The notes beneath the pieces are model-generated. The model did no database searches and was not told the DNA's origin. It worked only from the letters and a program-made list of their open reading frames with translations. From assembly GCF_003002815.1 (NCBI RefSeq), contig NZ_PVTF01000003.1:186001-250000 (forward strand): a stretch of 64,000 nucleotides of DNA. Direction: 5' to 3'. The stretch comes from Umezawaea tangerina. GTDB taxonomy: Bacteria; Actinomycetota; Actinomycetes; Mycobacteriales; Pseudonocardiaceae. Shown here piece after piece: positions 14,089 through 39,063 of this stretch (its first letter is position 1; each line of letters begins with the position of its first letter). The position numbers were made by a program, and so were the translations under genes.

Positions 14089-14650
14089 TCCCATCAAGGG
14101 CTTCGGCGTCACCTTCTCGACGATGTTCAAGAAGGTCGTCACCGAGGAGTACCCCGAGGTCAAGAAGGTCACCGCGCCGAGGTTCCACGGCCGCCACCAG
14201 CTCAACCGGCACCCGGACGGGCTGGAGAAGTGCGTCGGCTGCGAGCTGTGCGCGTGGGCCTGCCCGGCGGACGCGATCTTCGTCGAAGGTGGCGACAACA
14301 CCGACGACGCGCGCTACTCGCCCGGTGAGCGGTTCGGCGCCGACTACCAGATCAACTACCTGCGCTGCATCGGCTGCGGCCTCTGCATCGAGGCGTGCCC
14401 GACCCGTTCGCTCACCATGACGAACGAGTACGAGCTGGCCGACGACGACCGCCAGAAGCTGATCTTCACGAAGGAAGACCTGCTCGCCCCGCTGCTGCCC
14501 GGCATGGAGCAGCCGCCGCACCCCATGCGGTTGGGCGACAACGAGCAGGACTACTACGTGAACGGGCCGGCGCTTGCCCGAGACCTGCTTGCAGGGTCGA
14601 GCCAGGGGCAGAGCAACGCGGAGTCTGCGGTCAAGGGAGCAGGCAAGTGA
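14075..14650 (+). CDS. nuoI: NADH-quinone oxidoreductase subunit I, with repeat-encoded C-terminal tail
   Basis: 191-residue 8Fe ferredoxin-like subunit bridging NuoG and NuoB. The two cluster motifs are [12 protein letters not shown] (residues about 53-64) and [12 protein letters not shown] (about 97-108), giving clusters N6a and N6b. The core ends near residue 160 ([13 protein letters not shown]). The remaining tail includes [10 protein letters not shown] (169-178), encoded by a 30-bp sequence that recurs almost identically inside nuoI2, 24 kb away. The tail is dispensable by comparison with shorter family members. GTGA overlap with nuoJ. Confidence 0.95.
14579..14608 (+). repeat. 30-bp repeat, copy 1 (inside nuoI)
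   Basis: This 30-base stretch is 29/30 identical to 38692-38721 in nuoI2 (single C/T difference at the sixth base) and is read in the same frame in both, encoding [10 protein letters not shown]. The first part can fold (GACCTGC-TT-GCAGGGTC, one bulge). Its codons CTT and GCA are uncommon in neighbouring genes. Identity stops abruptly on both sides. Confidence 0.85.
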
Positions 14651-15528
14651 GCGTTCTCAACCTGGCGCAGGACTTCCTGGTCGCCGCGCAGCCCGCCACC
14701 CAGCCCGCGGCGCCGGTCGCCGACACCATCTCCACCGGTGAGGCCGTCGCGTTCTGGATCCTCGGACCGCTGTCGCTCCTGGGCGCGCTCGGCATGCTCT
14801 TCGCCCGCAACGCGGTGCACTCCGCGCTGTGGCTGGTGCTGACGATGCTCAGCCTCGGTGTCATCTACATGGTCCAGCAGGCGCCGTTCCTCGGCTTCGT
14901 GCAGATCATCGTGTACACCGGCGCGATCATGATGCTGTTCCTCTTCGTGCTGATGCTCGTCGGCAGGGACAGCTCGGACTCGATCGTCGAGGTGCTGCGC
15001 GGGCAGCGGCTCGCCGCCGCCGTGCTCGGCGTCGGCTTCGCCGGGCTGGTCGTCGGCTCGCTCGCCCAGGCGTTCACCCGCGTCGACTCCGTCGGCCTGA
15101 CCGCGGTGAACTCCTCGGGCGGCGGCAACGTGGCCAACATCGGCGCGGCGCTGTTCACCAAGTACCTGTTCGTCTTCGAGCTCACGTCGGCGCTGCTGAT
15201 CACCGCCGCCGTCGGCGCGATGGTCCTGGCCTACTCCGACCGGCACGGCAAGGGCCTGAAGAAGACCCAGCGCGAGCTGGTCGAGGAGCGCTTCAAGGGC
15301 GACCGCCCCGGCTCCCTGCCCGGCCCCGGTGTCTTCGCCACGGCGAACTCGGTGGCCACCCCCGCACTGCTGCCCGACGGCTCGGTCGCCCAGGAGTCGC
15401 TGTCCGCGCTCATCGAGGCGACCACCAAGGAACACCTCGCCGACGACGTCGCCGACGTGTCCGGCACCGGCCACCGGGCCGACGCGCGGGCTCTCACCGG
15501 TTCCGCGCCGAAGGAGGGGACGGAATGA
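14647..15528 (+). CDS. nuoJ: NADH-quinone oxidoreductase subunit J
   Basis: 293-residue membrane subunit with five N-terminal helices (about 34-54, 60-80, 85-105, 120-140, 175-200) that contribute to the proton path. The family core [67 protein letters not shown] is clear. About 80 C-terminal residues form a soluble tail ([22 protein letters not shown]...), typical of actinobacterial NuoJ. The GTG at 14647 overlaps the nuoI stop. Confidence 0.95.
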
Positions 15529-15824
15529 CCCCGACGTACTACCTGCTGCTGTCCGCGCTGCTGTTCAGCCTCGGCGCGGTCGGCGTTCTGGTGCGGCGCA
15601 ACGCCATCGTCGTGTTCATGTGCGTCGAGCTGATGCTCAACGCGGTGAACCTCACCCTCGTCACGTTCTCCCGCATGCACGGGGAGCTCGACGGCCAGGT
15701 GATGGGCTTCTTCGTGATGGTCGTCGCCGCCGCCGAGGTCGTGGTGGGCCTGACGATCATCATGTCGATCTTCCGCACGCGTCGCTCGGCCTCGGTCGAC
15801 GATTCCAACCTGCTGAAGTACTAG
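15525..15824 (+). CDS. nuoK: NADH-quinone oxidoreductase subunit K
   Basis: 99-residue, three-helix antiporter-like small subunit. The core [44 protein letters not shown] carries the conserved membrane glutamate ([10 protein letters not shown]), and the second acidic residue follows in [13 protein letters not shown]. The ATG overlaps the nuoJ stop (ATGA). Length is exactly the family norm. Confidence 0.97.
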
Positions 15825-15833
15825 GGGCCACTG

Positions 15834-17804
15834 GTGACCGAATCTATGCTCGCCCCCGCAAGCGGGGCCACGGATGCAGTTGCCGCCAGCGGGCTCGCGA
15901 GTCTCGCCTGGCTGTTGCTCGCCCTGCCGGCGTTCGGCGCGGCCGTGCTGCTGCTGGCGGGCAAGCGGGCCGACAAGTGGGGCCACCTGCTGGGCTGCGC
16001 CACGATCATCGCGGCGTTCGCCTACGGGCTCGCGCTGTTCTTCACGACCCTCGGCCAGGGCGCCGAGGAGCGGACCAGCGAGCTCCACCTGTTCGACTGG
16101 ATCCCGGTCGGCGCGCTGGACGTCGAGTTCGGCCTGCGGCTGGACCCGCTGTCGCTGACGTTCGTGCTGCTGATCACCGGTGTCGGATCCCTGATCCACA
16201 TCTACTCGATCGGCTACATGGCGCACGAGGAAGGCAGGCGCAAGTTCTTCGCCTACCTGAACCTCTTCGTGTCGGCGATGCTGCTCCTGGTCCTGGGCAA
16301 CGGCTTCGTGACGCTGTACTTCGGCTGGGAGGGCGTGGGCCTCGCGTCCTACCTGCTCATCGGCTGGTACCAGTACAAGCCGGAAGCGGCCTCCGCGGCC
16401 AAGAAGGCGTTCCTGATGAACCGGGTCGGCGACCTGGGTCTCGCGATCGCCATCTTCATCATGTTCAAGGAGCTCGGCACCACCACCTACACCGACGTGT
16501 TCGCGCGGGTGGACGAGCTGTCGTCCGGTTCGATCCTGGCGATCACGCTGCTGCTCCTGCTCGGCGCCTGCGGCAAGTCCGGCCAGTTCCCGCTCCAGGC
16601 CTGGCTCCCGGACGCCATGGCGGGTCCGACGCCGGTCTCGGCGCTGATCCACGCGGCGACGATGGTGACCGCGGGCGTGTACCTCATCGCCCGCTCGAAC
16701 CCCATCTACAACCTCAGCGCGGACGGCAGGCTGGTCGTCATGATCATCGGTGGCGTCACGCTGCTGATCGGCTGCATCATCGGCTGCGCCTACGACGACT
16801 TCAAGAAGGTCCTGGCGTACTCGACGGTCAGCCAGATCGGCTACATGATCCTCGCCGTCGGCCTCGGCCCGGTGGGCTACGCGCTGGGCATCATGCACCT
16901 GCTCACGCACGGCTTCTTCAAGGCCGGGCTGTTCCTCGGTGCCGGGTCGGTCATGCACGGCATGAACGACGAGGGCAACATCCGCCGGATGGGCGGGCTC
17001 GCGAAGTACATGCCCGTCACGTTCGCGACCTGGGCCCTGGGCTACCTGGCGCTGATCGGCATCCCGCCGTTCTCCGGCTTCTTCTCCAAGGACGCCATCA
17101 TCGCGGCCGCCTTCGGCGAGCCGGGCTGGCGCGGGTACGTGTTCGGCGGTGTCGCCCTGCTGGGCGCCGCGCTGACCGCGTTCTACATGACCCGCCTGCT
17201 GATCCTGGTCTTCCTGGGCAAGCCGCGCTGGAAGGAGCTCAAGACCTCCGAGGACGGTCGCGAGTACCACCCGCACGAGTCGCCGTGGTCGATGAAGATC
17301 CCGATGATCGTCCTGGCCGTCGGCTCGGTCGGCGCGGGCTTCTTCCTGGAGAACGGCGAGCGCCTCGCGGGCTGGCTGGAGCCGACCCTCGGGCCGCTCC
17401 AGGAGACGCACGGCGCGCTCGACCACACGATGGTCGCGATCCTGAGCGTCGCGCTCTCGCTGGTCGGCGTCGCGCTCGCGTTCCTGCTCTTCGGCCGCAA
17501 GCCGCAGCCGACCACGCGCCCGCTGCGCGTGTCGTTCCCGGTCCGCGCCGCGCGCGCCGACCTGTACGGCAACGCGCTCAACGAGGCGCTCTTCGCGCGG
17601 CCGGGCACCTGGCTCTCCCGCGCGCTGGTGTTCGTGGACAACAAGGGCGTCGACGGTCTCGTCAACGGGACCGCCGCGCTGCTCGGCGGTAGCTCCGGCC
17701 GGTTGCGCCGTCTCCAGACCGGTTTCGTGCGCTCGTACGCGCTCTCCATGCTCCTGGGCGCGATCTGCGTGCTGGGCGCGCTTCTGATGGTGAGGTTCTC
17801 GTGA
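15834..17804 (+). CDS. nuoL: NADH-quinone oxidoreductase subunit L
   Basis: 656-residue MrpA-like proton-pumping subunit. Motifs: GSLIHIYSIGYMAHEEGRRKFFAYLNLFVSAMLLLVLGNGFVTLYFGWEGVGLASYLLIGWYQYKPEAA, which carries the conserved Glu of helix TM5, and GKSGQFPLQAWLPDAMAGPTPVSALIHAATMVTAGVYLIAR, with the discontinuous helix and key Lys/His. The C-terminal amphipathic lateral helix region is present (about 530-620). Translation starts at GTG 15834, 9 bases after nuoK. Confidence 0.97.
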   Translation: MTESMLAPASGATDAVAASGLASLAWLLLALPAFGAAVLLLAGKRADKWGHLLGCATIIAAFAYGLALFFTTLGQGAEERTSELHLFDWIPVGALDVEFGLRLDPLSLTFVLLITGVGSLIHIYSIGYMAHEEGRRKFFAYLNLFVSAMLLLVLGNGFVTLYFGWEGVGLASYLLIGWYQYKPEAASAAKKAFLMNRVGDLGLAIAIFIMFKELGTTTYTDVFARVDELSSGSILAITLLLLLGACGKSGQFPLQAWLPDAMAGPTPVSALIHAATMVTAGVYLIARSNPIYNLSADGRLVVMIIGGVTLLIGCIIGCAYDDFKKVLAYSTVSQIGYMILAVGLGPVGYALGIMHLLTHGFFKAGLFLGAGSVMHGMNDEGNIRRMGGLAKYMPVTFATWALGYLALIGIPPFSGFFSKDAIIAAAFGEPGWRGYVFGGVALLGAALTAFYMTRLLILVFLGKPRWKELKTSEDGREYHPHESPWSMKIPMIVLAVGSVGAGFFLENGERLAGWLEPTLGPLQETHGALDHTMVAILSVALSLVGVALAFLLFGRKPQPTTRPLRVSFPVRAARADLYGNALNEALFARPGTWLSRALVFVDNKGVDGLVNGTAALLGGSSGRLRRLQTGFVRSYALSMLLGAICVLGALLMVRFS

Positions 17805-19366
17805 GCTGGACGCTGATCGCGCTGCTCCTGCTGCCGCTGGTCGGCAGCCTGGTGGTGGCCTTCCTGAAGGGGAACGACCGGACCGCGAAGCTCGTCGCGC
17901 TCGGGTTCTCCCTCGTGGAGCTCGCGCTGGCGGTCGTCGCGTGGGTCGCCTACGACCCGTCGTCGGGCGCCCGGCTCCAGCTGACCAGCTCGGTCGACTG
18001 GATCCCGACGTTCGGCGTGCACCTGTCGTTCGGCGTCGACGGCATCGCGCTCGTCATGATCGCGCTGATCGCCTTCCTGATGCCCGTCGTCATCGGCGGC
18101 GCATGGTCGGACAAGCTGCCGGAGGGCCGCAGCGCGAGCGGGTTCTTCTCGCTCCTGCTGGCCATGCAGACCGGCATGGTCGGCGTGTTCGCCGCGACCG
18201 ACGTGTTCCTGTTCTACGTGTTCTTCGAGGCCGTCCTCGTCCCGATGTACTTCCTGATCGGCCGCTTCGGCGGCCCGAACCGGCAGTACGCGGCGATGAA
18301 GTTCTTCCTCTACTCGCTGCTCGGCGGCCTGATCATGCTCGCCTCGGTGATCGGCCTCTACGTCACCAGCGCGGACAAGCTGGGCCAGGGCACGCTCGAC
18401 TGGGCCACGCTCGTCACGGTCATGAAGGACGCGCCGACGTCGACCCAGATCTGGCTGTTCCTCGGGTTCTTCATCGCCTTCGCGATCAAGGCCCCGCTGG
18501 TCCCGCTGCACACCTGGCTGCCCGACGCCGGTGCCGAGGCCCCGGTCGGCGCCGGCGTGCTGCTCGTCGGCGTCCTGGACAAGATCGGCACGTTCGGCTT
18601 CCTGCGCTACTGCCTGCCGCTGTTCCCGGCGGCCAGCAAGCAGCTCGCGCCGCTCGTGCTCGTGCTCGCGGTCGTCGGCATCATCTACGGCTCGCTGCTC
18701 GCGGTCGGCCAGACGGACATGAAGCGGTTCGTCGCCTACACCTCGATCGCGCACTTCGGCTTCATCGCGCTCGGCATCTTCGCGTTCAGCAGCCAGGCCG
18801 GTGCGGGCTCGGTGCTGTACATGGTCAACCACGGCATCTCGACCGGCATGCTGTTCCTGGTCGTGGGCATGGTGATGTCGCGCGGCGGCTCCCGCCTGAT
18901 CCAGGACTACGGCGGCATGGCGAAGCTGACCCCGGTGCTGGGCGGCCTGTTCTTCGTGGCGGGCCTGTCGTCGCTGGCGCTGCCGGGCACCAACTCGTTC
19001 GTGAGCGAGTTCCTGGTCCTCATCGGCTCGTACCCCAACCAGCCGGTGTTCACCATCATCTCCACGGTCGGCATGGTGCTCGCCGCCCTGTACGTGCTGT
19101 GGGTCTACCAGCGGGTCTTCCAGGGCCCCGTGCGCGGAACCGCGCTGCTGAACGTGGCGGCGGGCCCCGGTACCGCGACCGACCCCGAGCGCTCCGGGAT
19201 CAAGGACCTGAACCGGCGGGAGATCGCCGTGCTGGCGCCGCTGGTGGCGCTGGTCCTCGTGCTCGGGTTCTACCCCAAGCCGGTGTTGGACGTGATCTCC
19301 CCGTCGATCGGGGCGACGTTGAGCGAGGTCGGCGTGACCGACCCGGTCGCGCAGGAAGGCAAGTGA
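17801..19366 (+). CDS. nuoM: NADH-quinone oxidoreductase subunit M
   Basis: 521-residue antiporter-like subunit with about 14 helices. The conserved glutamate helix is in DVFLFYVFFEAVLVPMYFLIGRFG, and the channel motif is IAFAIKAPLVPLHTWLPDAGAEAPVGAGVLLVGVLDKIGTFGFLRY. Here the usual A-P-T position reads AEAPVGAGV, as in other NuoM proteins. GTG start overlaps the nuoL stop by 4 bp. Confidence 0.97.
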   Translation: MSWTLIALLLLPLVGSLVVAFLKGNDRTAKLVALGFSLVELALAVVAWVAYDPSSGARLQLTSSVDWIPTFGVHLSFGVDGIALVMIALIAFLMPVVIGGAWSDKLPEGRSASGFFSLLLAMQTGMVGVFAATDVFLFYVFFEAVLVPMYFLIGRFGGPNRQYAAMKFFLYSLLGGLIMLASVIGLYVTSADKLGQGTLDWATLVTVMKDAPTSTQIWLFLGFFIAFAIKAPLVPLHTWLPDAGAEAPVGAGVLLVGVLDKIGTFGFLRYCLPLFPAASKQLAPLVLVLAVVGIIYGSLLAVGQTDMKRFVAYTSIAHFGFIALGIFAFSSQAGAGSVLYMVNHGISTGMLFLVVGMVMSRGGSRLIQDYGGMAKLTPVLGGLFFVAGLSSLALPGTNSFVSEFLVLIGSYPNQPVFTIISTVGMVLAALYVLWVYQRVFQGPVRGTALLNVAAGPGTATDPERSGIKDLNRREIAVLAPLVALVLVLGFYPKPVLDVISPSIGATLSEVGVTDPVAQEGK

Positions 19367-19367
19367 C

Positions 19368-20933
19368 GTGACGTTCCTCGCCCAGGTTGAGCTGATCAAG
19401 CCGCCGGAGATCGAGTACAGCGCGATCGCGCCAGTGCTGATCGTGCTCGGCGCCGCGTGCGTCAGCGTGTTGTTCGAGGCTTTCCTGCCGAAGCACCAGC
19501 GGTGGGCGGCGCAGGTCGTGCTGACCATGCTGACCTTCATCGGCGCCGGTACCGCCCTCGGTCTGTACGCCGGGGCCGAGACCACCACCGCTCAGGGCAT
19601 CACCACGCTCTCCGGCGCGGTCGCCGTCGACCGCCCGGTGATCTTCCTGTGGGTCACGCTGCTGCTGCTCGGCTTCGGCTCGATCCTGCTGATCGCCGAC
19701 CGGTCGGTCGAGCCGGGCGGGGCGTTCGTCGCCGACGCCGCGGTCCGCCCCGGCACGGTCCAGGACCGCGCCCAGGCCACCCGCACCGGCATGCAGACCG
19801 AGGTCTTCCCGCTGACGCTCTTCGCGCTCGCCGGGATGATGGTGTTCGTCGCGGCGAACGACCTGCTGACGATGTTCATCGCCCTCGAGGTGCTGTCGCT
19901 GCCGCTGTACCTGATGTGCGGCCTCGCCCGCCGTCGCCGCCTGCTCTCGCAGGAGGCGGCCGTCAAGTACTTCCTGCTCGGCGCGTTCGCGTCGGCGTTC
20001 TTCCTCTACGGCCTCGCGCTGCTCTACGGCTACGCGGGCTCGGTGAAGCTCGCCGACATCGCGACCGCCACGGCGGGCAGCGACAAGTCCGACACGCTGC
20101 TGTTCGCGGGCTTCGGCCTGCTGGTGGTGGGCCTGCTGTTCAAGGCCTCCGTCGGCCCGTTCCACGCCTGGACCCCGGACGTCTACCAGGGCGCCCCGAC
20201 GCCGATCACGGCGTTCATGGCGGCCTGCACGAAGGTCGCTGCCTTCGGCGGCATCCTGCGCGTGCTGACCGTCGCGTTCGAGCGGACCAACTGGGAGTGG
20301 CGGGGTGTCCTGTGGGGCGTCGCCGTGGCCTCGATGGTCATCGGCGCGGTCCTCGGCCTCACCCAGACCGACGTGAAGCGCATGGTCGCCTACTCCTCGG
20401 TGGCGCACGCGGGCTTCCTGCTGATCGGCTCGATCTCGCTGACCGAGCAGGGCCTGTCCGGCACGCTGTTCTACCTGCTGGCCTACGGCTTCACCACGAT
20501 CGCCGTGTTCGGCGTGATCAGCCTAGTCCGCAACGCCGACGGCGAGGCGACGCACCTGTCCCAGTGGGCCGGGCTCGCCAAGCGGTCGCCGGTGCTCGCG
20601 GGCGTGTTCACGTTCCTGCTGCTGGCACTCGCGGGCATCCCCCTGACGAGTGGTTTCGTCGGCAAGTTCGTGGTGTTCGCGGCGGCCATCCAGGACGGTC
20701 TCGCACCGCTCGTGGTGGTCGCGCTGGTGGCCAGCGCGGTGGCGGCGTTCTTCTACCTGAGGGTCATCGTCCTGATGTACTTCAGCGAACCCGCACCTGA
20801 CGGCCCCACGGTCACCGTGCCCGGCGCGTTCACGACGATCGCGATCACCGTCGGTGCCGCGGTCACCCTCGTCCTGGGTGTCTGGCCGTCCTTCGCCCTC
20901 GATTGGGCGGGGGCAGGCGGCTTCATCTTCTAG
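19368..20933 (+). CDS. nuoN: NADH-quinone oxidoreductase subunit N
   Basis: 521-residue third antiporter-like subunit. Signature regions: ANDLLTMFIALEVLSLPLYLMCGLARRRRLLSQEAAVKYFLLGAFASAFFLYG (conserved Glu and Lys) and GLLFKASVGPFHAWTPDVYQGAPTPITAFMAACTKVAAFGGILR. Last gene of the nuo operon; the next gene starts 20 bp later, so read-through into the polyprenyl synthase gene is likely. Confidence 0.97.
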   Translation: MTFLAQVELIKPPEIEYSAIAPVLIVLGAACVSVLFEAFLPKHQRWAAQVVLTMLTFIGAGTALGLYAGAETTTAQGITTLSGAVAVDRPVIFLWVTLLLLGFGSILLIADRSVEPGGAFVADAAVRPGTVQDRAQATRTGMQTEVFPLTLFALAGMMVFVAANDLLTMFIALEVLSLPLYLMCGLARRRRLLSQEAAVKYFLLGAFASAFFLYGLALLYGYAGSVKLADIATATAGSDKSDTLLFAGFGLLVVGLLFKASVGPFHAWTPDVYQGAPTPITAFMAACTKVAAFGGILRVLTVAFERTNWEWRGVLWGVAVASMVIGAVLGLTQTDVKRMVAYSSVAHAGFLLIGSISLTEQGLSGTLFYLLAYGFTTIAVFGVISLVRNADGEATHLSQWAGLAKRSPVLAGVFTFLLLALAGIPLTSGFVGKFVVFAAAIQDGLAPLVVVALVASAVAAFFYLRVIVLMYFSEPAPDGPTVTVPGAFTTIAITVGAAVTLVLGVWPSFALDWAGAGGFIF

Positions 20934-20952
20934 TGGTACGTAGGCTTCAAGG

Positions 20953-21960: not shown

Positions 21961-21987
21961 CGCCGTGGTCGCCGCTGGGGAACGCCC

Positions 21988-23148: not shown

Positions 23149-25620
23149 GTGGTGTCGCTCTTCGGGCAGGTCTGGCTGTGGAGCCTGCTGTCCTTCGTGG
23201 CCGGTGTGCTGGTCACCTGGCTCGTGCAGGTTCGACCGGCCAGGACGCAGATCGCCGAGCTGGAGGACAGGCTCGGTGGTGCGGCCGGGCAGCCGCGGCC
23301 GCAGCAGCCCCCGGCCAGGCCGGGACCGTCGCCGATGGGCGACGACGAGTTCGACAACTGGCACGTCGGTGCGCGCGCGCAGACCGACGACCCGCTGGGC
23401 GCCGAGCCGCCGCACGCCCCCGAGCAGCACTGGCCGTCGGGGCCCGCGCCGGAGGCGCCGCGTCCCTACGAGCCGCCGCGCTCCTACGAGCAGCCGCGTC
23501 CCGCTGAGCCGCCGCGTCCGGCCGAGCAGGTTCGCCCGGCCGAGCAGGCGCGACCGGCCGAGCCGCCGCGTCCGCTGGAGGCGCCCGCCGCCCGCGCGCC
23601 GCAGCAGCGTCCCGCCGAGCCGCCGAGGCCGAACAACGACGTCCCGCCGTTCGTGCCGGTCGGCGCGTTCGCCCAGGCGCCCGAGCCGGACCCGGAGCCC
23701 GAGCCCGACCACGACTACGACGAGCTGCCCCCGGCGCTCACCAGGCTCCCCGAGACCGACGAGCCCTTCCGCCTCTCCGAGCCCGTCGAGGTGCCCGAGG
23801 AGGAGAAGCCGCGCAGCCTGTTCCAGCGGCTGGAGACCGAGGTCCAGGCCGAGCCGGTGCCGCTGCGCCCGGCCGAGGAGACCACCGTCTTCCGCCGCGA
23901 GGACCTCGACCAGCTGCCCGACCTGCCCGAGGTCCCCTCCGGTCGCGCGCGGCAGCCCGCGCCCGCCGAGGTCGCGCCGCCGCGCCCGGAGCCCACCGCG
24001 CCTCCCGAGGTGGAGGAGTGGCACCCGCGCGAGGTGTGGCGCGAGGAGGAAGAGGAAGCGGCCGTCGAGGCGGCCCCGGCGCCGGTCGACGAGCGCGAGG
24101 AGGACTTCGCCGCCGACGACTGGGTGCAGACCGCCGACGGGGAGAAGGCCCCGGAGCAGGCGTCCGAGGACGAGGCCCCGAAGGCCGCCGACAAGCCCGC
24201 CGAGCCGGTCGAGGCCGCCGAAGCTGGTGACACCGTCGAGGCCGTCGAAGCCGCCGAGGTCGTCGAGTCGCAGGACGAGGCCGTCGCGCGGTCCGAGGAC
24301 GAGCCCCTCGACGCCGAGATCGTCGAGGACGAGCCGGTCGAGGAGCCCGCGGCCGAGAAGCCCGCCGTGGAGAAGCCCGCCGCCGAGAAGCCCGCGGCGG
24401 AGGCGGCCCCCGTTCCCCCGGAGGACGCCGCCGAGGAGACCTCGGTCATCCCCGCCGCCGAGATGCGGCAGGCCATCGCCGAGGCCGACGCCCGCAAGGC
24501 CGAGAGCGCCCGCCCCGAGGTGCGCGGGCCCGACGTCCAGCAGCCCGAAGTCCGCAGGCCCGAGCCGAGGCAGCCCGAGCCGAGGCAGCCCGAGCCCAGG
24601 CAGCCCGAGCCCCGTCAGCCCGAGGTCAAGCAGCCCGAGCCCAGGCAGTCGGAGCCACGTCAGCCGGAGCCCAGGCAGCCCGAGGCCCGTCCCGCCGCCG
24701 CGCAGCCCGAGGTCCGCCGTCCCGGCGTGGGCCAGCCGGAGGCCCGTCCGGCGGAGTCCCGTCCGGCCGAGGTGCGTCGCCCGGAGCCCGCACCGCGGGC
24801 GAGCACGGGTGACGACGCCCGCCAGCCGTGGCCCGAGCACAGCCTCACCGGCCAGTTCCCGATCATCACCCCGGACGACATCGCGTCCAGCAAGGGCCAG
24901 CTCGGCCTCGAGGCGAACGACCCCGACGACGTGCGGGACGACCCGGACGAGCCGGTCGTCGAGCCCGCCGCCGAGGAGGTCGTGGAGCCGCCGGTCGAGG
25001 AACCGGCCGCCCCCGCGCCCGCCGCGGTGAAGCCCCCGGCTCCGCCCGCCGCCCCGGCGGCCGCCAAGCCCAGGTCGCTGTTCGAGCCCATCCAGGGCGA
25101 GTCGGACGACGACCCGGAGCCCGCCGAGACCGTGCGCCAGCTGCCGCCGTCGGACGACCAGCCGTTCGTGCCGACCCTCGCGCCGAGCCTGTTGGCGCGC
25201 GGGTCCAACGGGCTGCCGCAGCGCCCGCAGCGCCCCGCGGGCGGTCCGCCGCCCATGTCGTCCCCGCCGCTGCTGGCGCCCCAGCAGCCCGTTGCCCCTC
25301 CGCCGCCCCCGGCGAAGCCGCTGCGGCCCCGTCCGGTCGGTTTCAGCCCCTCCACGGGGGGTCGTCCGGAGACCCCGCCGCCCGCCGCGCCGCGCTACCA
25401 GCAGCCCGAGGGCTTCAACCCGCGCTCGCCGTTCGGGCCGGGGTCGGTGCTGCCCAAGTCCGACGGCCACGCGCCCGCACCGGACTTCGCGGTCAAGGCC
25501 ACCCTGACCGGCCGCCGCTACTACACGCCCGACGCCTCCACCTTCGAGGGCACCAGGGCCGACGTCTGGTTCCGCACCGAGGCCGACGCCCAAAAAGCCG
25601 GCTTCCGCCCCGCCCAATAA
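23149..25620 (+). CDS. Giant Pro/Glu-rich single-pass membrane protein with C-terminal sunset-type domain
   Basis: About 823 residues from GTG 23149, 8 bases after a GGAGG ribosome site. There is one N-terminal membrane helix (VWLWSLLSFVAGVLVTWLVQV, residues about 7-28), then about 750 residues almost without hydrophobic structure, dominated by Pro, Glu, Ala and Arg. A 150-bp block (24541-24690) is ten 15-bp repeats giving PEPRQ-like pentapeptides. The last 45 residues, FAVKATLTGRRYYTPDASTFEGTRADVWFRTEADAQKAGFRP, look like the small actinobacterial module called a sunset domain (K-x-x-Y-H/Y-x-P...AEVWF...AGF). A cell-envelope spacer or tether is likely but unproved. It ends before a strong terminator. 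Confidence 0.75.
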   Translation: MVSLFGQVWLWSLLSFVAGVLVTWLVQVRPARTQIAELEDRLGGAAGQPRPQQPPARPGPSPMGDDEFDNWHVGARAQTDDPLGAEPPHAPEQHWPSGPAPEAPRPYEPPRSYEQPRPAEPPRPAEQVRPAEQARPAEPPRPLEAPAARAPQQRPAEPPRPNNDVPPFVPVGAFAQAPEPDPEPEPDHDYDELPPALTRLPETDEPFRLSEPVEVPEEEKPRSLFQRLETEVQAEPVPLRPAEETTVFRREDLDQLPDLPEVPSGRARQPAPAEVAPPRPEPTAPPEVEEWHPREVWREEEEEAAVEAAPAPVDEREEDFAADDWVQTADGEKAPEQASEDEAPKAADKPAEPVEAAEAGDTVEAVEAAEVVESQDEAVARSEDEPLDAEIVEDEPVEEPAAEKPAVEKPAAEKPAAEAAPVPPEDAAEETSVIPAAEMRQAIAEADARKAESARPEVRGPDVQQPEVRRPEPRQPEPRQPEPRQPEPRQPEVKQPEPRQSEPRQPEPRQPEARPAAAQPEVRRPGVGQPEARPAESRPAEVRRPEPAPRASTGDDARQPWPEHSLTGQFPIITPDDIASSKGQLGLEANDPDDVRDDPDEPVVEPAAEEVVEPPVEEPAAPAPAAVKPPAPPAAPAAAKPRSLFEPIQGESDDDPEPAETVRQLPPSDDQPFVPTLAPSLLARGSNGLPQRPQRPAGGPPPMSSPPLLAPQQPVAPPPPPAKPLRPRPVGFSPSTGGRPETPPPAAPRYQQPEGFNPRSPFGPGSVLPKSDGHAPAPDFAVKATLTGRRYYTPDASTFEGTRADVWFRTEADAQKAGFRPAQ
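24541..24690 (+). repeat. Ten tandem 15-bp coding repeats
   Basis: The segment divides exactly into ten 15-base units of the type CAGCCCGAGCCNAGG, encoding Q-P-E-P/V-R. Units differ at one to five bases, mostly in the third and fourth codons. It forms the central disordered region of the long membrane protein. Slippage polymorphism between strains is expected. Confidence 0.85.
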
Positions 25621-29908: not shown

Positions 29909-29918
29909 GCCCCGGACT

Positions 29919-30381: not shown

Positions 30382-30398
30382 ACGCAATATTGTGGCGT
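30382..30398. promoter_or_regulatory. Candidate AsnC operator between asnC and ddaH
   Basis: ACGCAATATTGTGGCGT is an AT-cored near-palindrome in the 66-bp divergent promoter region, where autoregulating Lrp/AsnC proteins usually bind. Confidence 0.4.
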
Positions 30399-30434
30399 TG
30401 TTCGAGGGTCAGCCGGCCATCTACATTTCGATCC

Positions 30435-32390: not shown

Positions 32391-32406
32391 GGCCTTCGGA
32401 GGTGGA

Positions 32407-32823: not shown

Positions 32824-32955
32824 CCCATGCCCACGCTCGGCTCGTTGTTCTCGTCGACCTTTTCCTCCGCATGGAGACGTGTCCGCATGCGACCGGGCCC
32901 CAGGAGCGCGGCCGCGTCGTCCCAACCGCCAGCTGACCCAGAGAAGTGGAGTTCG

Positions 32956-33327: not shown

Positions 33328-33354
33328 GCCGGCTTTCACGGAATGCTCACGAAA

Positions 33355-33394
33355 GGGAAAGGCCCCCGGCGGATCGTCGTCGGGGGCCTTTCCC
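33355..33394 (+). terminator. Terminator of the roadblock cassette
   Basis: GGGAAAGGCCCCCG and CGGGGGCCTTTCCC form a 14-bp stem with a GC-rich loop. Confidence 0.8.
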
Positions 33395-33534
33395 CCGTCT
33401 CATCAGGTCGGTCGACTCCGATGTTGTGGGTGATTCGAGTACTGGTCGGAACAGGGTAAAACTCCAGGTCAGAGCATGTCTGCCAGGATTGGAACGGTGA
33501 GCGCTGACGATCGGAAGAACTGAAGGTTGTCGCG

Positions 33535-33550
33535 TGTGACCTGATTCACA
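33535..33550 (+). promoter_or_regulatory. Crp/Rex-like palindrome upstream of the lipoprotein gene
   Basis: TGTGACCTGATTCACA is a perfect Crp-type TGTGA-n6-TCACA site and matches 12 of 13 fixed positions of the Rex operator TGTGAACnnnTTCACA. It lies 84 bases before the start codon. Confidence 0.45.
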
Positions 33551-33633
33551 AACACGCATCCTTTCGCGTTGTCGAACATCCTTACCTGTGCAAGATGCGA
33601 ACACGGCAGGACAATTCGAAGGAGTCGGGGAAA

Positions 33634-34293
33634 ATGCGCAACAACAACAGTCGAGTCGTCCGCACCGCCGCCGCGGTCGCCGTCCTGGCCGCGTTCGGCG
33701 CGCTCACCGCCTGCTCCACCGGTCAGGCCGGGACGCCCGGTGCCGCCGGTGACGTGAAGCCGTCCACCTCCAGCGCGAAGCAGGCGCAGACCCCCGCCGG
33801 GGGCACCAGGGTGACCGGGGGTGCCGACGCGCTGAAGGCGAACGGCAGCAAGCCGTCCGGGGAGCAGTTCTGCGCCACCGCGCAGGTGGGGCTCGGGGTC
33901 GACTTCCCGGCGCAGGGCGCGGAGGGGCAGCTGACCGTGCCGATCCTGCTGGCCAACGACTCGTCGGTCCGCTGCACGATCCAGGGCTTCCCCGGTGTCC
34001 AGTTCCAGAAGGACAACGGCGAGTCGTGGGACCTCGTCCGCAGCGACGACCCGATCAAGCCGGTCAGCCTCGCGCCCGGTGAGTCGACGAGCGCCACGCT
34101 GGTCTTCCTGAGCGCGACCACGCCGGAGGGCACCTCGCACTGGTCGCCCGACTCGATCCTCGTCACGCCGCCGAACACGACCGACACCCAGCGCCTGGCG
34201 TGGGACTTCGGCGCGATCGTGCGCCAGGACGCCGCCACCCACCCCGGCACCTACGTCCGTTCGGTCGCGGCCGTCGACTACGGCAACAAGTGA
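33634..34293 (+). CDS. DUF4232-type secreted lipoprotein
   Basis: 219 residues with an N-terminal lipoprotein signal: basic MRNNNSRVVR, hydrophobic TAAAVAVLAAFGALT, and the lipobox LTAC. The start is fixed by AAGGAG 10 bases upstream. After a Ser/Thr/Gly linker, residues about 75-219 (FCATAQVGLGVDFPAQ...LTVPILLANDSSVRCTIQGFPGVQFQKDNGESWDLVR...VSLAPGESTSATLVFLS) have the pattern of the actinobacterial DUF4232 beta-sandwich with two cysteines likely disulfide-bonded. Anchored on the outer face of the membrane; function unknown. Confidence 0.8.
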   Translation: MRNNNSRVVRTAAAVAVLAAFGALTACSTGQAGTPGAAGDVKPSTSSAKQAQTPAGGTRVTGGADALKANGSKPSGEQFCATAQVGLGVDFPAQGAEGQLTVPILLANDSSVRCTIQGFPGVQFQKDNGESWDLVRSDDPIKPVSLAPGESTSATLVFLSATTPEGTSHWSPDSILVTPPNTTDTQRLAWDFGAIVRQDAATHPGTYVRSVAAVDYGNK

Positions 34294-34334
34294 CCCCAGG
34301 CCCGTGGGGCGACCTGGGTCTTAACGTGCTCGGC

Positions 34335-34388
34335 GAACGGTGCCGGTGAAGGTGGCTCGACCACCTCCACCGGCACCGTTCGTTTTGT
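34335..34388 (+). terminator. Terminator after the lipoprotein gene
   Basis: GAACGGTGCCGGTG and CACCGGCACCGTTC form a 14-bp stem with an additional inner GGTGG/CCACC hairpin, followed by GTTTTG. Confidence 0.85.
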
Positions 34389-34435
34389 CCGGACAGCCCT
34401 GACCGGGGTAGCGGCGCGGAACCCTCTGGACTCGG

Positions 34436-34462
34436 ATAATGGATAGTGCTAAGTTCCATTAT
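34436..34462. promoter_or_regulatory. Operator-like inverted repeat ATAATGGA-n11-TCCATTAT
   Basis: Perfect 8-bp arms overlap a GATAAT -10-like hexamer (34435-34440) and an in-frame ATG (34461). A bound repressor would occlude the promoter of the membrane protein gene. Confidence 0.45.
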
Positions 34463-34499
34463 GGCGAGTGAAGCTATCCATGATCAGAGGGGTACGGCC

Positions 34500-35471
34500 G
34501 TGAGAGCTCTGTCGGCGTTGATGGCGAAGGTGTCCGGGTGGAACCGGCCGATGCTGGTCGTGGCCGCGGCGATGGTGCCGGTCGCGCTGGTCGCGGTGGT
34601 CGGTCTGGTCGTGGACGACCGGGTGCTGGCGGGGTCGCCGATCTGGTTGAAGCCGTTCAAGTTCGCGGTCTCCATCGCGGTCTACGGCGTCACCTGGGCG
34701 TGGCTGATCTCGTTGCTGCACGTCGGCAAGCGGCTGGCCCAGCGGATCTCGGTCGGCATGGCGGCGGTGTTCGTCGTGGAGCAGGCCCTGATCGTCATGC
34801 AGGTGGTGCGCGGCCGCGGCAGCCACTTCAACGTGATGACGCCGTTCGACTCGACGGTGTTCAGCGTCATGGGGGTCTCGATCGGCCTGCTGTGGACCGG
34901 CTCGCTGGTGCTGACGGTGCTGGTGCTGCGGACGCCGTTCGCGGACCCGGCGACGCGGTGGGCGCTGCGGATCGGCTCGGTGGTGTCGCTGGCGGGCGTG
35001 GGGATGGGGGCGTTGATGACGTCGCCGACGTCGGCGCAGCTGGACTCGATGAAGGACGGCACGTTCAAGGGGATCGTCGGGGCGCACACGGTGGGCTTCG
35101 AGGACTCGGGGCCGACGATGGCCGTGACGGGGTGGAGCACGGTGGGCGGCGACCTGCGCATCCCGCACTTCGTGGGCATGCACGCGCTGCAGGTGCTGCC
35201 GCTGCTGGTGCTGGTCCTCGCCTTCCTGGCCACCCGCGTGCCCGCGCTGGCCTCCATCGTGGTCCGCACGCGCCTGGTGGTCGTGGCGGGCGTCGGGTAC
35301 GCCCTGCTGGTCGCGCTGGTGCTCTGGCAGGCCGAACGCGGTCAGCCGCTGACCGGGCCGGACGCCCTCACGCTGGGTGCGCTCGCGGCCGTGGTCGCGG
35401 TGGTCGTGGTCGGGGCCGTCGTCTCGGTGGTCCGACCGGTGGCCGCGGCGCAGGAGGTCGCCGTCGGCTGA
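34500..35471 (+). CDS. Multi-pass membrane protein of unknown function
   Basis: About 323 residues from GTG 34500, preceded by AGAGGGG at 7 bases; alternative starts at 34446 and 34461 fall inside an inverted repeat. About eight hydrophobic helices (for example MLVVAAAMVPVALVAVVGLVV, FAVSIAVYGVTWAWLISLL, VFSVMGVSIGLLWTGSLVLTVLVL, VVVAGVGYALLVALVLW). The polar loop between helices 5 and 6 carries PTMAVTGWSTVGGDLRIPHFVGMHALQVLP, where the H-F-x-G-M-H histidines might bind metal or heme. I do not recognise the family. No neighbour clarifies the role. Confidence 0.6.
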   Translation: MRALSALMAKVSGWNRPMLVVAAAMVPVALVAVVGLVVDDRVLAGSPIWLKPFKFAVSIAVYGVTWAWLISLLHVGKRLAQRISVGMAAVFVVEQALIVMQVVRGRGSHFNVMTPFDSTVFSVMGVSIGLLWTGSLVLTVLVLRTPFADPATRWALRIGSVVSLAGVGMGALMTSPTSAQLDSMKDGTFKGIVGAHTVGFEDSGPTMAVTGWSTVGGDLRIPHFVGMHALQVLPLLVLVLAFLATRVPALASIVVRTRLVVVAGVGYALLVALVLWQAERGQPLTGPDALTLGALAAVVAVVVVGAVVSVVRPVAAAQEVAVG

Positions 35472-35686
35472 CGGCCCTGCCGCGCTGCGGGCGGCCGTCC
35501 GGAGGGGGACGCTGTGGGCGCGGAACCCCGGCACCTGCGGCGGCGTGGAAACCTACACCGATCCGACACCCCATCTGCTCTCGTCATCTGTCTGGGTTCA
35601 CCCAGAGGGCTGATCGGTCTAGCGTCGAGCACCCCCTCGATGCTCCGATCGACGGCACCTGTTGTCGACCAGGTAGGGAGCGTGCC

Positions 35687-35845
35687 GTGAACGACCTCGA
35701 CGCCCAAGGTCAGTCGCCAGTGCAGGAACCCGCCGAAGAGCAGGTGAAGCCCCAGGTGTCGCCTGCACAGCGGCCGAAGAGCGGCCTGGACTGGCTGGTC
35801 AAGCAAGCGGAGCGCAAGCGTCCGAGCCAGGCACAACCCGAGTAG
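35687..35845 (+). CDS. Small hydrophilic protein (52 aa)
   Basis: GTG start after AGGGAG at about 8 bases. The sequence MNDLDAQGQSPVQEPAEE...RPKSGLDWLVKQAERKRPSQAQPE is highly charged with no cysteine and no membrane segment. A strong terminator 7 bases after the stop supports a genuine small transcription unit. Function unknown. Confidence 0.5.
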   Translation: MNDLDAQGQSPVQEPAEEQVKPQVSPAQRPKSGLDWLVKQAERKRPSQAQPE

Positions 35846-35851
35846 GGATCA

Positions 35852-35893
35852 CCGCGCAAGGGCCGCCCGTCACGACGGGCGGCCCTTGCGGCG
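35852..35893 (+). terminator. Terminator after the 52-aa gene
   Basis: CGCAAGGGCCGCCCGT and ACGGGCGGCCCTTGCG form a 16-bp perfect stem around a CACG loop. Confidence 0.9.
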
Positions 35894-35915
35894 TTCCGGG
35901 CCCTATTGTGGGCGC

Positions 35916-36257
35916 GTGTCCCCAGGCGTTCGGACCGCCCGGCCGGTGGAGCTGGGCATCGCGACCGCGGTGCTGATGGCCCTCGGCCTCGCCGCGGCGG
36001 TCGCCGGGCTGCTGGTCCCGGACACCGGCCCGCTCGCCGCGACCGCGGCCGTCGGCGGCCTGATGATCGCGGCACTGGCCGCCGCCGCGTGGTTCGGCAG
36101 CGCACCGGTGCACCGCACGCTCATCGGCACCGTCGTCGTGGTCGCCGTCGCCCTGCTGGCCCTGCACGCGCCATGGTCGGCCCTCGTGCTCGCCGCGGCG
36201 GGCCTGCTGCCCGCCCTGCCCCGCGTGCGCGCCTGGTACCGGCAGCCCACGCCCTAG
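35916..36257 (+). CDS. Small four-helix membrane protein
   Basis: 113 residues. The GTG at 35916 lies about 12 bases after TATTGT and has no ribosome site, suggesting a leaderless transcript. Four hydrophobic segments (IATAVLMALGLAAAVAGLLV, LAATAAVGGLMIAALAAAAWF, LIGTVVVVAVALLAL, SALVLAAAGLLPALP) fill almost the entire protein. Family unknown. It converges with the LysR gene, overlapping by 4 bp. Confidence 0.5.
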   Translation: MSPGVRTARPVELGIATAVLMALGLAAAVAGLLVPDTGPLAATAAVGGLMIAALAAAAWFGSAPVHRTLIGTVVVVAVALLALHAPWSALVLAAAGLLPALPRVRAWYRQPTP

Positions 36258-37288
36258 CCGGCCTCGGCCTCGAACGCCGACCACAGCAGGTTCAACGGGT
36301 GGTCCGCGGGGAACCTGGCCCGCTCCTCCTTGCGCGCGAACACGCCCACCAGCCGCTCCAGCACCGGCTGCCGGTCGTTCTTCAGCTCCACCACCCGCAG
36401 CCCGGTGCCCTCGCGCAGCTCCTGGTTGGCCGCCACCACGCCCAGGCCGGACGTGACGATCATGCAGCCCTGCACGAGCCCGGAGCGCAGCAGCGACATG
36501 CCGTACTGGATCTCGTCGATCTCCGCCGCGATGTCCAGCTCGTTGCGGTAGTCCGGTCCGAACCAGCCGCGCAGGAACTCCGCGATCAGTCCGTCGCCCG
36601 GCACGACCAGCGGCAGCCGCGGCAGCTCGCCGACCCCCGCGCTGGCCCCGAGCCGCTTCTCCGGCAGGTTCGTCAGCAGCGCGAGACCGCCGCGCCGCCA
36701 CTCGATGACGTCGAACTCGTCGAGGTGCCCGGTCTTCCCGGCGTGCGTCACGACGCTGCCGCACACCACGTCGACCTGCTTGCTCTCCAGCTTCGACCAG
36801 ATGTCCCTGGTCCGGATGTGCACGACCTTCAGCTCCACGTCGCGCTCCTTGAACTCGTCCGCGACGTGGTGCCAGGCCTTGGCCAGCGAGTCCAGCATGA
36901 ACCGGGTGGTGCCGACGGTGAGCGTCGTACCGAGCTTTCGGCGGCACTCGTGAATAGAGTCCAACCAATCGCCCAGCGTGATGCGCGCCAATTCGACCAA
37001 CGCCTCGCCGGTTTGCGTGATGAGCACATCTTTTCCGCGCCCCTGCTTGACGACGAGGGGTTCGCCGCACAGCGCGCGGAAGTTCCGGTTCAGGGTGTCG
37101 ATCTGCTTCTGCACGCTCGACTGCTCGCGGCCGAGCACCCGCGCGGCCCGGAGCGCGGAGCGGGTCTCGTGCACGGCGAGCAACGTCCTGAGCTGGTCCA
37201 TCGTGGTGTCCAGCAGGGCGTTCGGGGAGTGCAGGAGTCTGCTGAGCTGGTTCCCCGCCGGAAGGAGCAGCTGTGCCGAGCTGGACAT
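36254..37288 (-). CDS. LysR family transcriptional regulator
   Basis: 344 residues. The N-terminal winged helix is LDTTMDQLRTLLAVHETRSALRAARVLGREQSSVQKQIDTLNRNFRALCGEPLVVKQGRGKDVLITQTGEALVE (residues about 26-100). The linker helix is followed by a periplasmic-binding-like effector domain (TLTVGTTRFMLDSLAKAWHHVADEF...VDVVCGSVVTHAG...LPLVVPGDGLIAEFL...GMSLLRSGLVQGCMIVTSGLGVVA). It is divergent from nuoB2 with about 250 bp between them containing inverted repeats, so it is the prime candidate regulator of the orphan complex-I genes. Its effector is unknown. Confidence 0.85.
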   Translation of the reverse strand: MSSSAQLLLPAGNQLSRLLHSPNALLDTTMDQLRTLLAVHETRSALRAARVLGREQSSVQKQIDTLNRNFRALCGEPLVVKQGRGKDVLITQTGEALVELARITLGDWLDSIHECRRKLGTTLTVGTTRFMLDSLAKAWHHVADEFKERDVELKVVHIRTRDIWSKLESKQVDVVCGSVVTHAGKTGHLDEFDVIEWRRGGLALLTNLPEKRLGASAGVGELPRLPLVVPGDGLIAEFLRGWFGPDYRNELDIAAEIDEIQYGMSLLRSGLVQGCMIVTSGLGVVAANQELREGTGLRVVELKNDRQPVLERLVGVFARKEERARFPADHPLNLLWSAFEAEAG

Positions 37289-37432
37289 GGAGGCCTCTCA
37301 GGTCGTCGCGTCGGGCCGCGAGATGTTCTACCGATCAGTTGTACTGAACCTGACCACAGTTCGGCTACAAATAATCCTTAGATTCTGTCCCATTTCCCTG
37401 GACACGTATAGGCGTTCCGTAAGAGACTTCCG

Positions 37433-37463
37433 TTGCAACCAGCAGAGAGTTCGCGGGTTGCAA
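37433..37463. promoter_or_regulatory. Inverted repeat TTGCAACC-n15-GGTTGCAA between lysR and nuoB2
   Basis: Perfect 8-bp arms in an A+T-richer divergent region, plausible as the LysR recognition site. Spacing fits a tetramer half-site but is not diagnostic. Confidence 0.4.
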
Positions 37464-37486
37464 TCCTGTGGGGGGATAAGGGGGGT

Positions 37487-37522
37487 TGGGGGCTCGCCGG
37501 GCGCAAGCTTGGCGGGCCCCCA
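37487..37522 (+). promoter_or_regulatory. GC-rich hairpin and TATTAG -10 before nuoB2
   Basis: TGGGGGC-T-CGCC pairs with GGCG-G-GCCCCCA around a 12-base loop and ends just before TATTAG (37525-37530). The nuoB2 GTG follows 12 bases later without a ribosome site, suggesting a leaderless message whose promoter is flanked by this palindrome. Confidence 0.4.
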
Positions 37523-37541
37523 CGTATTAGCCTTCCCCACC

Positions 37542-37985
37542 GTGACGGTTTCCACGTCCGCCGAGCGCGGACCGCGCCTCGACTGGGGCACCACCTTCCA
37601 CATCACCGTGCTGGACCTGGGTCTCGCGTGCTGCGGCGTCGAGGTGATGGCCGCGCTCGAGGGCCGCGGCCCCGACGACCTCGCGGCGCTGGGCGTCGAG
37701 CCGGTGCACGACGGGGGCGAGGCTCACGTGCTGATCGTCTCCGGCACGGTCACCGACGTGATGCTGCCCGCGGTGATCGCGACCTACGAGGAGATGCCGG
37801 AGCCGCGGTACGTGCTGTCCGTCGGCGCGTGCAGCAACACCGGCGGGCCGTACTGGGACTCCTACTGCGTGACCAAGGGGATCGACCAGGTGCTGCCGGT
37901 CCACGTCGCCGTGCCCGGCTGCCCGCCGCGTCCCGAGGCGCTCATCGAGGGCCTCGTCGCGCTGCACAAGCTGGTCGCCTCGTGA
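37542..37985 (+). CDS. nuoB2: Complex I subunit B paralogue (orphan set)
   Basis: 147 residues, shorter than NuoB because the N-terminal helix is reduced. It keeps every N2 cluster ligand: Cys30-Cys31 in LACCGVEVM, Cys97 in GACSNTGGPYW and Cys127 in [10 protein letters not shown]. The GACSN-x-GGPYWDSY-x-VTKG stretch differs from nuoB in this window and resembles the NuoB2 group of Streptomyces second nuo clusters (from memory). The GTGA overlap with nuoC2 shows a translationally coupled trio. No NuoD, NuoH or antiporter gene accompanies it, so it may work with subunits made elsewhere or be a remnant. Confidence 0.85.
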   Translation: MTVSTSAERGPRLDWGTTFHITVLDLGLACCGVEVMAALEGRGPDDLAALGVEPVHDGGEAHVLIVSGTVTDVMLPAVIATYEEMPEPRYVLSVGACSNTGGPYWDSYCVTKGIDQVLPVHVAVPGCPPRPEALIEGLVALHKLVAS

Positions 37986-38554
37986 CCGCCGCGTCCGCCG
38001 AGCTGGCCGAGCTGGTGCCCGGTGCCGTGGTCAAGACGGCCTTCGGCCAGAGCACCGCGCACGTCGAGCTGGACCAGTGGTCCACGGCAGCCCGGTTCGC
38101 CCACGACGACCTCGGCTGCCTGGCGTTCGACTGGCTCGGTGTCGAGGACGCGGGCCGCCCCGGCGCGAGCGGCGTGCGGCACGCCGTCCTCCTGCACGTC
38201 CTGCACCCGGACACCAGGGCCGGTCTGCTGCTGCGCACCGAGCTGGCGGCGGGCGAGGTGCTGCCGAGCGTCGCCGGGCTGTGGGCGGGCGCCGCGTGGC
38301 ACGAGCGCGAGGCCGCCGAGATGTTCGGCGTCGAGCTGGCCGAGCCCACCCCGCACCTGCTGCTGCCCGACACGTTCGCGGGCCACCCGCTGCGCAAGGA
38401 CTTCGTGCTGGCCTCGCGGGTCGTGCGGCCGTGGCCGGGCAGCCTGGAACCGGGGGAGGACTCCACGTCCTCGCCCAGCCGCCGCCGCACCCTGCCGCCC
38501 GGCGTGCCCGACCCCGCGACGTGGGGACCCCGACGTGAGGAGAACCAGCAGTGA
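37982..38554 (+). CDS. nuoC2: Complex I subunit C paralogue (orphan set)
   Basis: 190 residues. The 30-kDa-subunit motif is recognisable but diverged: [48 protein letters not shown] (residues about 95-142) against the standard WxEREAxDMFGI...HPxLRKDY. The Pro-rich C-terminal tail ([14 protein letters not shown]...) is unusual. GTG overlaps nuoB2 and ATGA overlaps nuoI2. Confidence 0.8.
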
Positions 38555-39063
38555 CCGCCGAGCTGCCGCCCCGGACCCGAGGCGTGATCGCGCTGCTGGA
38601 GTCCAACTGCACGGTCTGCATGATCTGCGCCCGCGAGTGCCCCGACTGGTGCATCCACATCGAGTCGCACACGGAGACGGTCGAGACGCCGCGAGATCTG
38701 CTTGCAGGGTCGAGCCAGGGGAACAGTCATGCCCGTCCTCGTACCCACAACGTGCTGGATCGCTTCGCGATCGACTACGGCCAGTGCCTCTACTGCGGCA
38801 TCTGCGTCGAGGTGTGCCCGTTCGACGCCCTGCACTGGGCGCCCGAGTTCGGCTACCCCGGAACGGGTGACGTCCACGGCGACGGCGCGGTCGCCGAGCT
38901 CGTGCACGAGCGCGACGTGCTGGCCACGTGGATCACCGAGGTCCCGCCGCCGCCCGCGCTCGACCCCGCCGCCGAACCGGCCCCGGAGACGACCGCCACA
39001 CGTCCGGTACGGGGCGGTTCAGGAACCGCGCGCAGGCCGGGAGCGTTGAGGGGGAGGACCTGA
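38551..39063 (+). CDS. nuoI2: Complex I subunit I paralogue (8Fe ferredoxin) with a repeat-encoded insertion
   Basis: 170 residues with two intact [4Fe-4S] motifs, [12 protein letters not shown] (20-31) and [12 protein letters not shown] (79-90). Between them, where NuoI2 relatives have a short loop before NVLDRFAID, this protein has [19 protein letters not shown] (from residue 48). The first ten residues are encoded by the 30-bp repeat also found in nuoI. The N-terminal membrane-associating helix of ordinary NuoI is missing, and the C-terminal 35 residues are Pro/Ala-rich. It is followed 18 bp later by htpX. Confidence 0.85.
38692..38721 (+). repeat. 30-bp repeat, copy 2 (inside nuoI2)
   Basis: 29/30 identical to 14579-14608 and in the same reading frame ([10 protein letters not shown]). 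Here it lies in the inter-cluster loop rather than the C-terminal tail, so the copies are not at homologous positions of the paralogous genes. Confidence 0.85.

Follow-up and report, generated by a model that had tools for sequence, protein, structure and literature searches.

A 33-bp hairpin-forming sequence, very probably a mobile DNA element, lies in frame in nuoI, nuoI2 and nuoL of Umezawaea tangerina

The window examined here, the whole 64,000-nucleotide stretch of Umezawaea tangerina contig NZ_PVTF01000003.1 from position 186,001 to 250,000, contains three copies of a 33-bp hairpin-forming element, in the genes nuoI, nuoI2 and nuoL. The nuoI gene (14075..14650, plus strand) and nuoI2, which encodes a NuoI-like ferredoxin (38551..39063, plus strand), were assigned from their translations and Pfam. 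The first copy (14578..14610, plus strand, hairpin at 14582-14598) occupies the C-terminal tail of NuoI, and the second (38691..38723, plus strand, hairpin at 38695-38711, directly followed by CAG at 38724-38726) falls between the two iron-sulfur motifs of NuoI2. A 30-mer comparison of 14579-14608 with 38692-38721 finds 29/30 positions identical, with the 24-mer CTGCTTGCAGGGTCGAGCCAGGGG common to both letter for letter, and the two copies translate alike, as NuoI residues 169-178 and NuoI2 residues 48-57. Two matches within three mismatches of CTGCTTGCAGGGTCGAGCCAGGGG were reached in 0/100 dinucleotide shuffles. The similarity between the two genes stops at the edge of the unit, which sits at non-homologous positions. 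A first-pass annotation had picked out this pair, and direct comparison and translation bear out the identity, the common peptide and the residues it gave; its remark that the repeat uses locally rare codons also holds (CTT 1.0 and GCA 3.1 per 1000, among 8268 codons in 17 open reading frames of the window).

A third copy, unseen in the first-pass annotation, was detected by a structure-aware scan; it is placed at the 5′ end of nuoL, on the minus strand (15844..15876; the part of the host gene given to Pfam is 15834..17400, plus strand). It lies in frame after GTGACCGAAT, encodes LAPASGAT, and has an altered stem that still pairs (GCCCCG/CGGGGGC). The covariance model matches it at 15837-15873 on the other strand with E 1.3e-7, the other two window copies score 9.2e-12 and 7e-11, and the next best match in the window has E 0.02. 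A search of the whole genome at up to three mismatches to the 24-mer gives no match beyond nuoI and nuoI2, yet the covariance model returns 13 copies at E<=0.05, nine of which reach E<=1e-4. These nine sit at six sites: nuoI, nuoI2, nuoL, an array of four copies where a gene read as nadC begins, and the sites labeled C6 and C1.

Comparison with two congeners, G022 and G060, covers these 9 of the 13 matches, and all six sites are without the element in both genomes. The nuoI2 gene is exactly 33 bp shorter in both congeners, and the empty site reads GAGACGCC joined to GGGCCATGCC in G022 and GAGACCCC joined to CGGTCACGCC in G060. At nuoL, both congeners read GTGACGGAAT joined to CAGTTGCC, the window being longer by exactly 33 bp, in frame. 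The array in the nadC-like gene corresponds to 132 bp missing in both congeners, and the copy at C6:74123 to 33 bp missing in both. Alignment of NuoI and NuoI2 with their relatives, as the annotation had proposed, shows the peptide to be missing at both positions in both congeners.

Similar patterns are seen in other genera. Stretches of the Allokutzneria genome G034 were chosen for comparison because of their high copy density; one stretch of 120 kb holds 13 copies, 11 of them comparable with G068 or G095. Plain gains account for 7/11, six of exactly 33 bp relative to G068 and one (17984) with neighboring indels. In Saccharopolyspora, the nuoI site is filled in 2/22 genomes and empty in 20/22, and the filled point is the same tail point as in nuoI of the window, for which the simplest reading is independent insertion at a common hot spot. 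Recent mobility of the 33-bp element is well supported.

The edges of conservation are sharp. The consensus is CCGAAGACCTGCTTGCAGGGTCGAGCATCRGCA followed by CNG (type A, spanning CCG to the right-hand CNG), and a second type, to which the nuoI and nuoI2 copies belong, is shifted by one base (type B, GC/GT-GAGACC...GGTCGA-GC/AC-CAT). In the right-hand CNG of type A, C is found in 49/54 copies and G in 44/54. The copies frequently form head-to-tail arrays among the family loci, and adjacent units are spaced by 33 bp in 43/49 cases, the others being 27 (2), 30 (2), 32 (1) and 35 bp (1). Position and spacing counts used 85 of 89 sites and the coding classification 83, locus-end copies or duplicates being set aside, and one survey of matches took 31/38, setting aside 7 array-internal copies. 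An NRPS (nonribosomal peptide synthetase)-like gene of an Actinophytocola metagenome-assembled genome (MAG; locus L111, 3718-7998) carries one array in each orientation.

The first-pass annotation had held that the first part of the repeat can fold, which stem covariation bears out. The stem pairs GACCTG with CAGGGTC around a CTTG loop, with one nearly invariant extra G in the 3′ arm that is kept in 84/85 sites and 156/157 distinct copies. Among 61 distinct variants, collected by mismatch count among the matches listed for the pattern GAGACCTGCTTGCAGGGTCGARCCA and so without a stem-based bias, double changes at the six proposed pairs number 12, every one of them Watson-Crick; single changes yield G-U in 8 cases and disrupt the pair in 11. 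As controls, no double change remains when the partner is slid by one in either direction, and with shuffled partners the compensated changes average 0.8, with a maximum of 6. In an alignment of 45 copies (44 of 75 chosen, plus the nuoI copy), 97.8% of the cells are paired, 10 double changes are present, and the covariation score was reached in 0/500 shuffles, a test that leans slightly to structure because two of the 75, one of them nuoL, entered through a stem-based filter. Most of the double changes alter the peptide, which argues that it is the pairing and not the peptide that is kept. Since copies occur in both gene orientations, the hairpin is probably conserved as DNA rather than as part of the host mRNA.

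The element is dispersed in the Pseudonocardiaceae. At up to three mismatches, the 24-mer matches 21/297 family genomes, that of the window included, and GAGACCTGCTTGCAGGGTCGARCCA matches 58/294 family genomes in 20/46 genera, the reversed pattern giving 0. At least 80 stretches lie in named genomes of Kutzneria, Kibdelosporangium, Actinocrispum, Actinophytocola, Crossiella, Allokutzneria, Pseudonocardia, Saccharopolyspora hirsuta, Amycolatopsis and others, as well as in many MAGs; the genera named are Pseudonocardiaceae. Outside this family and related MAGs, the matches listed include only two loci of Rhodococcus rhodnii (L097, L105). One copy in this species lies inside a mycothiol-S-transferase domain, and horizontal transfer may perhaps account for these loci. 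Matches to the covariance model at E<=0.05 number 13, 8 and 4 in the three genomes that represent the window's genus. Six further genomes have 54, 37, 59, 44, 46 and 28, and Allokutzneria G034 has no fewer than 149, a lower bound with 150 candidates scored. The listed G034 copies, counted roughly by hand with the origin assumed at base 1, suggest no replication-strand bias; this count was not used.

Beyond the family, a phylum sample gives 0/395 other genomes at E<=1e-4, that of the window being the sole match of 396, at reduced sensitivity. An order sample matches in 15/397 genomes, 12 in the family and 3 outside it as single weak matches with E from 1.7e-5 to 9.9e-5. These scans took about 17 candidates per genome under stricter filters (in the order sample, G034 gives 18 matches vs 149), which makes them weak negatives. 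The out-of-family matches (L262 in G968, G865:C1:799001 and G696:C279:3797) are perhaps diverged relatives or chance. Viral contigs searched with the exact pattern, and phages and plasmids searched with blastn, give no match, and carriage by phage or plasmid was rejected on that basis.

With a length of 33 bp, or 11 codons, the element can fuse in frame with its host in either orientation. By codon statistics on both flanks, 16/83 sites satisfy a strict rule for lying within a gene, 34 are classed as boundary sites and 33 are unclear. The 16 strict sites use five of the six frames (+0 1, +2 5, -0 2, -1 1, -2 7), with 6 copies in sense and 10 in antisense orientation to the host, and none of them contains a stop when read in the frame of the host. 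A stop in one frame does occur in some copies, for example in the DLLAGSN frame of the GT-GAGACC type. Of 20 host proteins, picked for coding-looking flanks, 11 have the copy within the span of a Pfam alignment: RPE65, TRAM_2 (MiaB-like), AIRS_C (PurL-like), mycothiol-S-transferase, DAP epimerase, peptidase S13, AMP-binding (NRPS), KAsynt_C_assoc (polyketide synthase, PKS), PNKP ligase, cobW and Fer4_7 (NuoI2). In the other 9/20, it lies in linkers, at termini or in places without a scan display. From the Pfam matches and the sequences, several hosts look like PurL, DapF, MiaB, PKS, NRPS and NadC; PurL and DapF are normally essential, and both therefore presumably still work with the element inside.

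The first-pass annotation had noted that both hosts are complex I ferredoxins. The nuo operon is indeed struck repeatedly (nuoI in two genera, nuoL here and four MAG loci), but ferredoxins are not the rule, the other hosts including PurL, DapF, MiaB, PKS, NRPS and NadC-like proteins. At the MAG loci L068, L112, L123 and L126, the element lies directly before a nuoK-like gene.

Nine empty sites are readable (nuoI2, nuoL, six in Allokutzneria and the Saccharopolyspora nuoI), with a CNG, mostly CCG, at the junction in at least one relative. These data are suggestive of CNG as a possible target. The element may insert 3′ of CCG while bringing its own CNG end, which would resemble the single-strand transposition of IS200/IS605 elements. 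Among 101 singletons of mixed type, matches between left and right positions exceed shuffled values at offsets -4/29 (48 vs 28.9), -7/26 (40 vs 25.7), -10/23 (35 vs 25.8), -8/25 (31 vs 22.6) and -1/32 (82 vs 57.3), with no excess at -2/31 (34 vs 40.0). Most of this excess may reflect codon phase together with mixed subtypes, and a true target-site duplication is not claimed. As to the flanking direct repeats that the annotation had raised, the CCG left and CNG right ends are duplication-like, but the middle base differs; a parent transposon, as for a miniature inverted-repeat transposable element, was not found.

We consider it highly probable that this 33-bp sequence moves as a DNA element, carries no gene of its own, forms a hairpin and inserts in frame into host genes. 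A small mobile in-frame insertion is what the first-pass annotation had proposed, and the empty sites in the congeners, the dispersal over many genera, the stem covariation and the copies inside conserved domains support it. The combination that the annotation had set against mobility, no further copies together with outgroups sharing both peptides, is the opposite of what is seen: there are further copies, and the congeners are empty.

Several observations weigh against this interpretation. In principle, the patterns of filled and empty sites could result from loss, possibly repeated, instead of gain. The tail of the window's nuoI is 48 bp longer than that of G022, not 33, with about 15 bp of other change beside the copy; at C1:729828, G022 lacks 33 bp but G060, in which no hairpin is seen at this site, only 19; and the remaining Allokutzneria copies of the 11 comprise 1 common to G068, 2 with ambiguous partial G068 matches and 1 unresolved. 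The folding energy of 35-36-mers is no better than that of shuffled sequence, hairpin-templated mutation may partly cause the compensatory changes, and related copies were counted apart. As for the target, CNG occurs at 12.8% of window positions and at 36% with three placements allowed, site 13997 has no CNG in relatives and C6 none on its right side, and in type A the left end is almost always CCG, whereas the right-hand CNG frequently has a middle base unlike that of the relatives. The reversed 24-mer gives one match in each of 3/297 genomes, so that single weak matches to the 24-mer may be chance. Finally, a mover enzyme was not found and movement was not observed.

How such an element would move is a matter for more tentative proposals. 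Copies would be made and inserted at or beside CNG by an enzyme acting in trans on the folded single strand, arrays may grow through local duplication, and selection would retain those copies that sit in loops, linkers and tails able to tolerate them. As a working proposal, to which we give somewhat less than even weight, the element would be a self-spreading 33-nt hairpin, among the smallest gene-invading elements, copied by a trans-acting system outside the Y1 HUH class that reads the folded strand and inserts it next to CNG. Its 11-codon length would permit many tolerated in-frame insertions, even in essential enzymes, and so feed protein evolution in the Pseudonocardiaceae. The absence of PF01797, at Pfam sensitivity, from the 12 carriers searched favors a trans-acting system of this type, with enzyme-free template switching as its main rival.

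Under that rival, there is no dedicated enzyme, and template switching during replication or repair copies the hairpin, with CNG and CCGAAG end matches as landing points. Each end carries a short triplet, the two being alike (CCG on the left, CNG on the right), no candidate transposase was found, and at two Allokutzneria sites the CCGAAG start is present at the same place in the relative, all of which fit template switching. A fixed 33-bp unit at scattered sites and the very uneven copy number between genomes, however, fit a trans-acting factor better, and we regard template switching as possible, with perhaps one chance in several of being correct.

Much less probable is membership of the repetitive extragenic palindromes (REPs) and their paired form, REPIN, moved by the REP-associated tyrosine transposase (RAYT, Y1 HUH). 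According to PMC3116915 and PMC3733652, REPs are imperfect hairpins of similar size with many dispersed copies, sometimes intragenic, and the present element is REP-like in its size range of 20-40 bp, its imperfect hairpin and its dispersed copies; PMC3733652 places intragenic REPs in several species. REPs lie mainly between genes; the 83 sites classified here divide into 16 strictly genic, 34 boundary and 33 unclear ones. Unlike REPs and REPINs, however, the consensus lacks GTAG or CGTC at the foot of the hairpin, where CGAA/GCGA/GTGA and GAGC/GAAC stand instead, and the arrays are head-to-tail, not inverted doublets. PF01797 is found in 0/12 carrier genomes and in 5/14 control genomes, Escherichia coli included; among 6 other genomes, only G116 has it, which itself has no copy by the GAGACCTGCTTGCAGGGTCGARCCA search. 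A REP/RAYT origin was rejected at the sensitivity of Pfam, the domain being missing in 12/12 carriers.

Ectopic exchange between nuoI and nuoI2 as the sole source of the window copies has little to recommend it. These two genes are the only places in the genome within three mismatches of the 24-mer, but the positions are non-homologous, the similarity is confined to the unit, and the same unit lies in unrelated genes of many genera, with the nuoL, C4, C6 and C1 copies left unexplained; the annotation had likewise argued against gene conversion between aligned paralogues. Equally doubtful is a regulatory RNA element in host mRNAs, to which the conserved hairpin and the copies at gene starts or junctions would be suited, but not the use of both orientations (6 sense, 10 antisense) or the lineage-specific placement. 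The sole Rfam match in 14400-16200 is mir-339, away from the element and at 23.9 bits vs a gathering threshold of 60, and a known RNA family was rejected. An ancestral or convergent peptide under protein-level selection is hardly credible: DLLAGSS does occur at the same place of the NuoI tail in two Saccharopolyspora species, but it is missing in 20/22 Saccharopolyspora genomes and both congeners, other copies are read in other frames as unrelated peptides, and compensated stem changes alter the peptide.

Other repeats are present elsewhere in the window. A perfect 40-bp palindrome, possibly a terminator, lies at 48278-48317 (CGCGAAGAGGCCGTCCCCGATCGGGGACGGCCTCTTCGCG), two inverted arms of about 22 bp each (TGCCCGACCTTCGTTGTCAAGAC) flank a short spacer at 54389-54443, and a tandem repeat with a 15-bp unit (GCCCGAGCCGAGGCA) lies at 24558-24596.

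The preferred reading, a mobile 33-bp element, makes two questions testable, namely which factor mobilizes such small elements and at what frequency proteins acquire short loops by insertion vs slow mutation. For annotation, it implies that a short insert restricted to one lineage, when it lies in a conserved enzyme of these genera (polyketide synthases among them), may be mobile DNA instead of a functional adaptation. A literature search with three peptides and a DNA core found no paper, and among the papers listed by topic none describes the element in its title or the opening of its abstract; subscription journals are mostly uncovered by these searches, and the result is not proof of novelty.

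Among systems already described, the cyanobacterial small dispersed repeats (SDRs), reportedly the subject of Elhai et al. 2008, offer one parallel. SDRs are very short, some of 20 bp, and possibly mobile (PMC2884548), and SDR5 inserts precisely within HIP1 (PMC4390886). The present element is likewise very short and dispersed, and comparison with empty sites shows it to be mobile; it differs in its lineage, its many intragenic insertions and its clean 33-bp gains, and the likeness is one of description. The PARCELs are tandem palindromic coding repeats presumed to be mobilized, with 25-residue domains (PMC2996958). PARCELs have a conserved protein pattern and lie in open reading frames without assigned functions, whereas the peptide here depends on the frame and the hosts include conserved enzymes.

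A further close comparison is with the Rickettsia palindromic elements (RPEs), as the first-pass annotation had anticipated. PMC10969869 describes RPEs of about 150 bp in ten families, in frame in unrelated and likely functional genes, and PMC3733652 describes small palindromes with CGTC at one end. The idea was largely right: here too a palindromic repeat lies in frame in protein-coding genes, but at 33 bp instead of about 150 bp, in five frames and both orientations, without the CGTC tag, and in high-GC actinobacteria rather than Rickettsia. The in-frame spread of small palindromes into genes has been known chiefly from Rickettsia, and PMC3733652 reports REPs inside genes of several further species. 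In the present case, the hosts are large genomes of free-living actinobacteria, and the element is about one fifth the size of an RPE, has clean empty sites, and occurs without the transposase linked to REPs.

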